Source: Aeromicrobium senzhongii (GTDB lineage Bacteria > Actinomycetota > Actinomycetes > Propionibacteriales > Nocardioidaceae). Taken from it: a stretch of DNA of 64,000 nucleotides. Position numbers and translations under genes: made by a program. Below, one piece after another: positions 3,789 through 6,991 of the stretch (within the stretch, counting starts at the first letter, position 1; each line of letters begins with the position of its first letter). The stretch is from the NCBI RefSeq assembly GCF_014334735.1, contig NZ_CP060587.1:1426001-1490000 (forward strand), written 5' to 3'. Below the pieces are notes generated by a model. That model saw nothing but the letters and a program-made list of their open reading frames with translations. It searched no databases and was not told where the DNA came from.

Positions 3789-5222
3789 ATGACCGACCAC
3801 GAGCGCGTTCGGACCGAGCATGACCTGCTGGGGGAGCGCGAGGTACCGGCGGACGTCTACTGGGGAGTGCACACCCTGCGCGCCCTGGAGAACTTCCCGA
3901 TCACCGGTGTGCCCATCGCCATCAGCCCGTACCTCCCGCAAGCCCTCGCGGCGGTGAAGGAGGCGGCGGCCGAGGCGAACCACGACCTCGGCCTGCTGGA
4001 CGACGAACGCCATGCGGCGATCGTGCAGGCCTGCCGCGAGATCCGGGCCGGCGAGCTGCACGACCAGTTCGTCGTCGACGTCATCCAGGGTGGCGCCGGC
4101 ACGTCGACGAACATGAACGCCAACGAGGTCATCGCCAACCGGGCGCTGGAGATCCTCGGGCACCGCTTCGGCGACTACGACCGCCTGCACCCGAACGAGC
4201 AGGTGAACCTGAGCCAGTCGACGAACGACGTCTACCCGACGGCCGTCAAGATCGCGGTCATCAACGCGACGTACGACCTGATCGACTCCATGGGTCGCCT
4301 CGAGGACGCCTTCGCCGAGAAGGCGGTCGAGTTCCACGAGGTCCTCAAGATGGGCCGCACGCAGCTGCAGGACGCCGTGCCGATGACGCTCGGCCAGGAG
4401 TTCGGCACCTACGCGCTGATGATCGGCGAGGACCGCGAGCGCCTGCGCGAGGCCGTCCTGCTGCTGCACGAGATCAACCTCGGTGCCACCGCGATCGGCA
4501 CCCAGCTCAACGCCCCGCAGGGGTACGTGCCCCGCGCCCGCGAGCACCTGTCGCGCATCACCGGCCTGCCCCTGCGCACGGCCGTCGACCTGATCGAGGC
4601 GACGCAGGACTGCGGCTCCTTCGTGCAGATGTCCGGTGTGCTCAAGCGCGTCGCGGTGAAGCTCTCGAAGATCTGCAACGACCTGCGTCTGCTGTCGTCC
4701 GGCCCGCGTGCCGGCCTCGGCGAGATCAACCTGCCCGCGCGCCAGGCCGGGTCCAGCATCATGCCGGGCAAGGTCAACCCGGTCATCCCCGAGGTCGTCA
4801 ACCAGGTGGCGTTCCAGATCATCGGCCACGACGTCACGGTGTCGATGGCGGCCGAGGCCGGACAGCTGCAGCTCAACGCCTTCGAGCCGGTGATCTGCTA
4901 CTCCCTGTCGGCCGGTCTCTACCGGCTGCGGATGGCGATCGAGTCGCTGACCGAGCACTGCGTCCGAGGGATCACCGCCAACCGCGAGCACCTCGCGGCC
5001 GAGGTCGCCAACTCCGTCGGCCTCGTCACGGCCCTGAACCCGTACCTGGGCTACCAGACCGCCACCGAGCTGGCCAAGGAGGCGTTGCTCAGCGGGCGCG
5101 GCGTCGCCGAGCTCGTGCTGGAGAAGGGCCTGCTGCCCGCGGACGAGCTCGAGCGGATCCTGCGGCCCGAGACGCTGGCCCATCTGGGGCCCAAGCCGGC
5201 GGACCGCTCCGGCGGCGTCTGA
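3789..5222 (+). CDS. aspA: Aspartate ammonia-lyase
   Basis: Fumarase/aspartase superfamily enzyme that reversibly converts L-aspartate to fumarate and ammonia in the cytoplasm. The 477-residue product has the family's three signature regions: a GAGTSTNMNANEV stretch near residue 100, QSTNDVYPTAVKIA near 140, and the catalytic-loop signature GSSIMPGKVNPV near 320. The N-terminus RTEHDLLGEREVPADVYWGVHT is typical of aspartases rather than FumC, although class II fumarase is the main alternative. It lies 36 bases after pheT. TTACAT 6 bases before the ATG may be part of its own promoter, and no clear ribosome binding site is seen. Confidence 0.9.
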   Translation: MTDHERVRTEHDLLGEREVPADVYWGVHTLRALENFPITGVPIAISPYLPQALAAVKEAAAEANHDLGLLDDERHAAIVQACREIRAGELHDQFVVDVIQGGAGTSTNMNANEVIANRALEILGHRFGDYDRLHPNEQVNLSQSTNDVYPTAVKIAVINATYDLIDSMGRLEDAFAEKAVEFHEVLKMGRTQLQDAVPMTLGQEFGTYALMIGEDRERLREAVLLLHEINLGATAIGTQLNAPQGYVPRAREHLSRITGLPLRTAVDLIEATQDCGSFVQMSGVLKRVAVKLSKICNDLRLLSSGPRAGLGEINLPARQAGSSIMPGKVNPVIPEVVNQVAFQIIGHDVTVSMAAEAGQLQLNAFEPVICYSLSAGLYRLRMAIESLTEHCVRGITANREHLAAEVANSVGLVTALNPYLGYQTATELAKEALLSGRGVAELVLEKGLLPADELERILRPETLAHLGPKPADRSGGV

Positions 5223-5251: not shown

Positions 5252-5257
5252 TACGCT
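5252..5257 (+). promoter_or_regulatory. -10 box for the cimA leader transcript
   Basis: TACGCT lies 6 bases before the leader-peptide ATG at 5264. It fits a leaderless transcript that begins at that ATG. No clear -35 element is visible. Confidence 0.45.
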
Positions 5258-5263
5258 GTGGCC

Positions 5264-5302
5264 ATGACCACATCGGTGATCATCATTGGAAAGCGCGTCT
5301 GA
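5264..5302 (+). CDS. Ile-rich leader peptide of an attenuator upstream of cimA
   Basis: A 12-codon frame reads MTTSVIIIGKRV and stops at 5300-5302. Three consecutive isoleucine codons (5279-5287) plus two valines are the classic composition of a transcription-attenuation leader for branched-chain amino acid genes. It is followed directly by a perfect hairpin and an intrinsic terminator, and the next gene is citramalate synthase, an entry enzyme of isoleucine synthesis. The function is inferred from this arrangement. No Shine-Dalgarno sequence is seen, but a TANNNT box sits 6 bases upstream, so leaderless translation is likely. Confidence 0.72.
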   Translation: MTTSVIIIGKRV

Positions 5303-5321
5303 AGCACCATCTCAGACGCGC
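5293..5321 (+). promoter_or_regulatory. Hairpin overlapping the leader-peptide stop codon
   Basis: GCGCGTCTGA (5293-5302) and TCAGACGCGC (5312-5321) form a perfect 10-bp stem with a 9-base loop. The left arm contains the last codons and stop of the leader peptide, so a ribosome reaching the stop would melt it, while one stalled at the first Ile codon would leave it free. It ends one base before the terminator stem. Confidence 0.65.
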
Positions 5322-5322
5322 C

Positions 5323-5349
5323 GCCTCCCGTACCCGGGGGGCTTTTTTT
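5323..5349 (+). terminator. Intrinsic terminator in the cimA leader
   Basis: GCCTCCC (5323-5329) pairs with GGGGGGC (5336-5342) through one G-U pair, and seven T residues follow (5343-5349). It lies between the leader peptide and cimA, so it would act as the regulated terminator of an attenuator. It could also end aspA transcripts. Confidence 0.85.
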
Positions 5350-5389
5350 GTGAACGAACAGTGTGTGGAACGAACAGAGCAGGACAACC

Positions 5390-6991
5390 ATGAGCACGAG
5401 CTTCGGCAAGCACGACCCGGCGGACTTCCACGTCTATGACACGACGCTGCGTGACGGCGCCCAGCAGGAGGGCCTGAACCTCTCCGTGCAGGACAAGATG
5501 GCCATCTCCCAGCATCTCGACGAGCTGGGCGTGGGCTACATCGAGGGCGGCTGGCCCGGCTCGAACCCCAAGGACACCGAGTTCTTCGCCCTCGCGGCCA
5601 AGGAACTGGACCTCAAGCACGCGACCCTGGCCGCGTTCGGCTCGACCCGCCGCGCCGGTGCGGTCGCCGCCGACGATCCGCAGGTCGCCGCGTTGCGCGA
5701 CTCCGGCGCGTCCGTCGTGACCGTGGTGGCCAAGAGCCACGACCAGCACGTGCTCCGCGCCCTGCGCACCACGCTGGACGAGAACCTCGCGATGGTCCGC
5801 GACACCGTGACCCACCTGCGCGAGGAGGGCCAGCGCGTCTTCCTGGACTGCGAGCACTTCTTCAACGGCTACATCGACAACCGCGATTACGCGATCGAGG
5901 TCGTGCGCACCGCCGCCGAGGCGGGTGCCGAGGTCGCGGTGCTGTGCGACACGAACGGCGGCATGCTGCCGCACTGGGTGAACGAGATCGTGGCCGATGT
6001 CCTCGCCTCGACCAACATCCGCTTGGGCATCCACGCCCACAACGACACCGGCTGCGCCGTGGCGAACTCGATCGCCGCCGTGCAGGCCGGCGCGACCCAC
6101 GTGCAGGGCTGCATCAACGGCTACGGCGAGCGCACCGGCAACGCCGACCTCGTCACGTGTGTGGCGAACCTGGAGTTCAAGCTGGGCATGAGCGTCATGC
6201 CCGAGGGCGTGCTGGCCGATGCCACGCGCATCTCGCACGCGATCAGCGAGATCACGAACTACCCGCCTGTCGCCCGTCAGCCGTACACGGGAGTGTCGGC
6301 GTTCGCGCACAAGGCCGGGCTGCACGCCAGCGCGATCCGGGTCGATCCGGACCTGTACCAGCACATGGATCCGGCCCTGGTCGGCAACGACATGCGGCTG
6401 CTGGTCTCGGAGATGGCCGGTCGCGCGACGATCGAGCTCAAGGGCCGCGAGTTGGGCTTCGACCTCTCGGGCGACAACGAGCTGCTGACCCGCATCACCG
6501 ACCAGGTCAAGAAGATGGAGCAGGACGGCTACACGTTCGAGGCGGCCGACGCCTCGTTCGAGCTGCTGCTGACCGAGGCGGTCACCGGCGTGCGCCCGGC
6601 CTACTTCGACGTCGAGTCCTGGCGCGTGATCGCCGGCTCCGCCGGTGACGGTGGTGCCGAGGCGATCGTCAAGGTCGTCGCCGGCGGCCGCCGGACCGCC
6701 GTGGTGGGCGAGGGCAACGGCCCGGTCAACGCGCTCGACCACGCATTGCGTCAGGCAATCGAGCGGATCTACCCCGATGTCGCCCAGTTCCACCTGATCG
6801 ACTTCCGCGTGCGCATCCTCGACCAGGGGCACGGCACGGACGCCGTGACGCGCGTGCTGATCGAGACGACGGACGGCAAGAGCTCGTGGGTCACCGTGGG
6901 GGTGGGGCCGAACATGATCGAGGCCTCCTTCGAGGCGCTCGTGGACGCGCTGACCTACGGTCTGCGCTCGCACGGGGTCGAGACGCCCTAG
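5390..6991 (+). CDS. cimA: Citramalate synthase
   Basis: Condenses pyruvate with acetyl-CoA to (R)-citramalate, giving a threonine-independent route to 2-oxobutyrate and isoleucine. The 533-residue protein has the HMGL-like TIM barrel with VYDTTLRDGAQQEG near residue 20, the metal-binding IHAHNDTGCAVANS near 215, and a LeuA-type allosteric C-terminal domain (about 400-530) with GNGPVNALDHALRQ. Length and the TTLRDGAQQEG variant fit the CimA family (TIGR00977 type) better than 2-isopropylmalate synthase. I chose ATG 5390 (STSFGKHD) over an in-frame GTG at 5363. Expression is probably controlled by the upstream leader peptide and terminator. Confidence 0.92.
   Translation: MSTSFGKHDPADFHVYDTTLRDGAQQEGLNLSVQDKMAISQHLDELGVGYIEGGWPGSNPKDTEFFALAAKELDLKHATLAAFGSTRRAGAVAADDPQVAALRDSGASVVTVVAKSHDQHVLRALRTTLDENLAMVRDTVTHLREEGQRVFLDCEHFFNGYIDNRDYAIEVVRTAAEAGAEVAVLCDTNGGMLPHWVNEIVADVLASTNIRLGIHAHNDTGCAVANSIAAVQAGATHVQGCINGYGERTGNADLVTCVANLEFKLGMSVMPEGVLADATRISHAISEITNYPPVARQPYTGVSAFAHKAGLHASAIRVDPDLYQHMDPALVGNDMRLLVSEMAGRATIELKGRELGFDLSGDNELLTRITDQVKKMEQDGYTFEAADASFELLLTEAVTGVRPAYFDVESWRVIAGSAGDGGAEAIVKVVAGGRRTAVVGEGNGPVNALDHALRQAIERIYPDVAQFHLIDFRVRILDQGHGTDAVTRVLIETTDGKSSWVTVGVGPNMIEASFEALVDALTYGLRSHGVETP

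Follow-up and report, generated by a model that had tools for sequence, protein, structure and literature searches.

The window analysed here, a 64,000-nucleotide stretch from the complete, 3.13-Mb genome of Aeromicrobium senzhongii, carries aspA followed by cimA, which encodes a 533-aa citramalate synthase (5390-6991, + strand; start ATG at 5390) and is the gene proposed to be under control. The first-pass annotation had assigned cimA to the isoleucine pathway; its product is confirmed as a citramalate synthase by TIGR00977 (634.7 bits; cut-off 450). aspA ends at 5222 and, ~40 nt further on, a short ORF (5264-5302, +) encodes the leader peptide MTTSVIIIGKRV, whose frame and Ile run are kept in relatives. 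Its codons are ATG ACC ACA TCG GTG ATC ATC ATT GGA AAG CGC GTC TGA, with the regulatory Ile-Ile-Ile triplet, ATC ATC ATT, at 5279-5287 (+); by codon usage, the last of these, ATT, is rare. A -10 box, TACGCT (5252-5257, +), can be read directly 6 nt (GTGGCC) ahead of the leader's ATG and would place the transcription start at or adjacent to A5264, giving a leaderless leader mRNA. The leader's stop codon is inside the 5' arm of a hairpin, A:B (5293-5321, +; arms 5293-5302 and 5312-5321), which has 10 perfect pairs and a 9-nt loop, is backed by folding and covariation, and is our proposed antiterminator. A single-base spacer (5322, +) separates A:B from an intrinsic terminator (5323-5349, +) identified by sequence, folding, and alignment; it is composed of hairpin C:D (5323-5342; 8 pairs in the MFE structure) and T7 (5343-5349). 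Upon re-reading, the Ile triplet, the 10-bp hairpin overlapping the stop codon, and the terminator with seven Ts were all found where they had originally been placed. Folding of 5264-5352 gives an MFE of -38.7 kcal/mol (z = -4.75), a value that 0 of 200 shuffled sequences equaled. An Rfam search of 5264-5349 gave nothing above gathering score, the top model being Phe_leader (19.9 bits vs. 55).

cimA was matched in 48 of the 49 Aeromicrobium genomes searched, and an Ile-rich leader, hairpin, and terminator lie upstream of it in 44 of these 48. In this genus, the ORF mostly extends a few codons further, through arm A. The four genomes without the element (G018, G026, G007, and G039; loci L125, L127, L121, and L126, respectively) have a -10 box, TAGACT, directly before the cimA start codon. 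In these, cimA itself appears to be leaderless, and it looks like the element was lost from leader start to gene start; the abutting -10 box fits a transcription start site at the leader's ATG. The four attenuator-free genomes are also a natural control for expression studies. Since the end of aspA is so close to the leader ORF, the hairpins could be regarded as merely the aspA terminator, with the ORF being fortuitous. However, of 102 leader loci examined, just 9 have aspA directly upstream, whereas the element remains associated with cimA; also conserved are the run of Ile codons, the use of rare codons, and the context of the start. Because the element is retained in lineages where aspA is not directly upstream, we rejected this reading, which has almost no chance of being correct.

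Beyond the genus, cimA is preceded by the element in Nocardioides, Terrabacter, Humibacillus, Rarobacter, and others, and a leader was present at 116 of the 128 cimA loci examined, although the genomes compared share ancestry and such counts are not independent. Judged by its recurrence in other families in addition to the 44 Aeromicrobium genomes, the element is not due to chance. Leaders outside Aeromicrobium usually end Ile-Ile-Ile-X-TAG, which puts the stop codon at the base of the hairpin. All 104 distinct leaders fold as exactly two exterior hairpins; in 102 of them, 4-5 nt separate the last Ile codon from arm A, and the gap between A:B and the terminator is 0-1 nt in 102 as well. Because a leader was called when a short ORF had an Ile pair close to its end and was followed by a T-run, neither of these two features is independent evidence in this set, whereas the offset, gap, and hairpin are independent of the recognition criteria. 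Control might conceivably be exerted on translation of cimA rather than its transcription, through coupling or re-initiation after the leader, as mycobacterial leaderless poly-Cys ORFs give translational attenuation (cited in PMC13236596). However, an intrinsic terminator with a U-tract is conserved between ORF and gene in 104 of 104 distinct leaders (the T-run being a recognition criterion), and we regard translational control as very improbable.

In an alignment of 43 sequences, 96% of the A:B cells are paired, and changes on both sides are seen at six of the 10 pairs. The covariation score of the whole structure is 0.356 vs. 0.160 ± 0.011 for shuffled alignments, with 0 of 500 shuffles reaching it, and versions of the structure slid along the alignment scored only 0.07-0.12. 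RNAalifold recovered A:B unaided. A:B thus covaries strongly; the basal GCGC:GCGC pairs are near-invariant and therefore uninformative for or against pairing. While the amino acid (Ile) is constant among leaders, its synonymous codons vary. The rare codon ATT makes up 98 of 278 leader Ile codons (35%) as compared to 1.2% in 80 cimA coding regions (binomial p ~5e-114; since relatedness is not accounted for, this value indicates a large effect and is not to be taken as exact), and at least one ATT occurs in 94 of 106 leaders. Finally, 112 of 116 leaders have an in-frame start preceded, at a distance of 6-7 nt, by a -10-like hexamer ([TC]ANNNT), as against 1.5% of background starts, so that the leaderless start suspected earlier is well supported at the sequence level.

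As first read at this locus, the element is an isoleucine attenuator, and the retention of Ile codons upstream of cimA in both close and distant relatives supports this; an Ile-responsive attenuator is highly likely. The full explanation, a ribosome-mediated transcription attenuator tying cimA expression to charged tRNA-Ile, is likely. Such an element would very probably turn on an isoleucine-making enzyme when isoleucine is short, in the window's bacterium and in hundreds of relatives. RNA polymerase would start at the ATG of the leader ORF, and a 70S ribosome would initiate on the leaderless mRNA. With ample Ile-tRNA, the ribosome would reach the stop codon and cover arm A (5293-5302), A:B would be blocked, and C:D would form and end transcription. 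The front edge of a ribosome is ~15 nt from the first P-site base. With scarce Ile-tRNA, a ribosome whose A site holds the first Ile codon would thus wait with its front edge just short of arm A, leaving A:B free to form and the polymerase to read through into cimA. Stalling at the third Ile codon, rather than the first, would hide about half of arm A, which counts against the model. In addition to cimA, a threonine deaminase is encoded at G000:C1:698621-699745 (+), scoring over the TIGR01127 cut-off; hence, cimA need not be the sole entry to isoleucine, and 2-oxobutanoate seems to be reachable by two routes in this organism.

A:B is probably the antiterminating state, given that starvation must raise expression and given the polarity of the M. 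tuberculosis ilvB1 attenuator. There, codon-dependent induction on starvation has been reported, and changing the LVVI leader codons to AAAA resulted in low, uninducible expression (PMC13236596). Speaking against the explanation, codon changes in the S. coelicolor ilvB leader were without effect on regulation, according to work cited in PMC1262725. In our 104 leaders, A:B and C:D coexist thermodynamically (median pair probabilities of 0.99 and 0.98, respectively), and folding alone therefore predicts no switch. The tight 0-1 nt gap suggests steric exclusion at the polymerase, in which the formed A:B duplex, positioned at the base of C:D inside the exit channel, would hinder C:D from closing. 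We put this mode forward as a possibility, at somewhat less than an even chance.

A classical trp-type attenuator, in which ribosome stalling lets arms B and C form a 2:3 antiterminator, would also call for a leader peptide, regulatory codons, and 1:2-like and 3:4-like hairpins, all of which are present. However, with B and C separated by the same 0-1 nt in nearly all leaders (102/104), pairing of B with C near the junction would have no loop and a 2:3 hairpin would not fit, so the leaders lack the textbook switch. Furthermore, when C:D is disallowed, the best folds are less stable by at least 11 kcal/mol, and the twelve such folds that were shown keep A:B and leave C and D unpaired. Constrained folding of the 104 leaders found neither a 2:3 antiterminator nor a stable alternative pairing of C or D, making the trp-type mechanism improbable. 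Indeed, it had been noted earlier that the hairpin and terminator stem do not overlap, which is correct and general among relatives' leaders, and that the mechanism may not be of the classical, mutually exclusive type, which the lack of shared pairing in these folds supports. Two other pairings were considered and set aside. In many Aeromicrobium leaders, A:B can be seen by eye to extend into C (AGGC with GCCU), but the partner sequence is missing from G045 and from those Nocardioides leaders that were inspected, and arm B could pair with arm D in some of the Aeromicrobium leaders whose arm B contains CCCCC; neither pairing is general. A:B might instead serve as a pausing or synchronizing hairpin, with antitermination arising from another contact, such as Nus factors or ribosome-polymerase coupling. 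The 1:2 hairpins of known attenuators pause polymerase, and A:B would form with the polymerase still in C. However, a pause hairpin alone explains neither the short, conserved gap nor why stalling leads to read-through, and we consider this account unlikely, though not negligible. As a control, abutting hairpins were sought at ordinary terminators; the 14 cases obtained, several of which are themselves attenuators, are too few to serve as a rate.

The first-pass annotation underestimated the breadth of the element, which is Actinomycetia-wide and has a platform in common with ilvB and leuS leaders. A covariance model of it (R1) matched 219 of 395 Actinomycetia genomes and 83 of 123 genera, with the caveat that E-values of purpose-built covariance models are rough; cimA was found in 313 of the 395. 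In the window's genome, R1 gives a single strong match, i.e., the cimA leader. Sixty R1 matches were opened, and 52 of them lie before cimA, six before ilvB, and two before leuS (cimA being called by tblastn, and ilvB and leuS by protein sequences and tblastn). When the codon run was omitted from the model (R2), 20 of 20 secondary matches opened preceded ilvB or leuS. The codon run tracks the gene, with Ile before cimA, Leu/Val/Ile mixtures before ilvB, and Leu before leuS. GTA occurs in 18 of the 19 ilvB codon triples shown and CTT in nine of the nine leuS leaders shown; each accounts for <1% of its own amino acid's codons in cimA genes. This rare-codon rule (ATT, GTA, and CTT) is a simple way to locate further members. 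Across the 19 ilvB and nine leuS leaders, the gap is 0-2 nt and the offset is 3-8 nt.

The nine leuS leaders (L169, L226, L258, L263, L264, L268, and L270-L272) come from several families and have CTG/CTC/CTT Leu runs on the two-hairpin platform. The window's genome has an ilvB leader as well, MHSLLLVLR* (G000:C1:2009906-2009968, - strand; L134), which is leaderless and has its own hairpin and terminator of the cimA-leader design. Four genomes without cimA have ilvB leaders with codons CTC GTA GTA ATT/CTT (LVVI or LVVL) and a hairpin and terminator downstream; judging from these codons, they are presumably mycobacteria. In two of them (G117 and G104), the hairpins abut in the fold shown; in G051 and G090, the folded segment starts within the ORF and leaves arm A out of view. 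An ilvB leader ending VIVVVIR was found in a small-genome actinobacterium (L269 in G085; 1.4 Mb) on the same platform in AT-richer sequence. In two assemblies, ilvB and cimA attenuators are ~7-12 kb apart on one contig (G399:C11, 115-122 kb; G390:C39, 4-17 kb), a proximity which suggests that one was possibly derived from the other by local duplication.

Actinobacterial ilvB and leuS attenuators have already been described (PMC8079986, PMC10272879, PMC13236596, and PMC1262725). In the literature searched, mostly non-subscription journals, we found no description of an attenuator or leader peptide for cimA or citramalate synthase, in agreement with the earlier opinion that a cimA leader is not a standard example, and cimA and citramalate are absent from a survey of premature terminators (PMC2965389). 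The sensing principle is therefore known; what would be new are the gene, the amino acid, and a shared platform lacking the base-sharing of the classical type. With this element, the pyruvate route to isoleucine in Actinobacteria gains a control point that is widespread and apparently undescribed; the element also supports, on genomic grounds, the view that actinobacterial TIGR00977 enzymes serve isoleucine rather than leucine synthesis. Tentatively, and with odds somewhat against it, the leaders could represent a modular actinobacterial platform in which the antiterminator uses no terminator bases, an abutting hairpin blocks the terminator sterically, the ribosome decides via the 5' arm, and a few rare codons retarget the device to Ile (cimA), Val/Leu (ilvB), or Leu (leuS). 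This raises the question of whether an intrinsic terminator can be stopped by a neighboring hairpin that does not compete for the terminator's bases and, if so, the question extends to the M. tuberculosis ilvB1 attenuator.

Among known systems, the ilvB attenuators of Actinobacteria (Mycobacterium ilvB1, Streptomyces ilvL, and Corynebacterium ilvB-II) resemble the cimA leader in having a leader ORF with branched-chain amino acid codons, a first stem-loop at or just after these codons, and a U-tract terminator. The ilvL leader of S. lividans is also leaderless (PMC8079986), and its peptide, MRTRILVLGKRVG, has GKRV in common with the leader in the window; in Corynebacterium, stem-loops P1 and P2 occur with a uORF over P1 (PMC10272879). 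The cimA leader differs from these in its Ile codons and in its gene. In addition, the M. tuberculosis ilvB1 leader is 166 nt long, unlike that of cimA, and its published model has mutually exclusive structures (PMC13236596), whereas no shared pairs were found in the cimA leader. Streptomyces leuS attenuators are similar in their Leu-run leader ORF, two hairpins, and terminator but differ in amino acid and gene, and their description (Seliverstov et al., 2005; PMC1262725) presents them as being of the classical kind, having an antiterminator as well as a terminator. The ilvB/leuS-type platform, i.e., a codon run, a few nt, a GC-rich hairpin, 0-2 nt, and a terminator, is present in full in the cimA leader. 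As in the trp and ilv-type attenuators of E. coli, stalling at codons for the pathway's amino acid would decide termination; however, the E. coli type has a 2:3 antiterminator that the cimA leader is without, and in the absence of translation the cimA leader is predicted to allow read-through, whereas the E. coli type would be expected to show super-attenuation.
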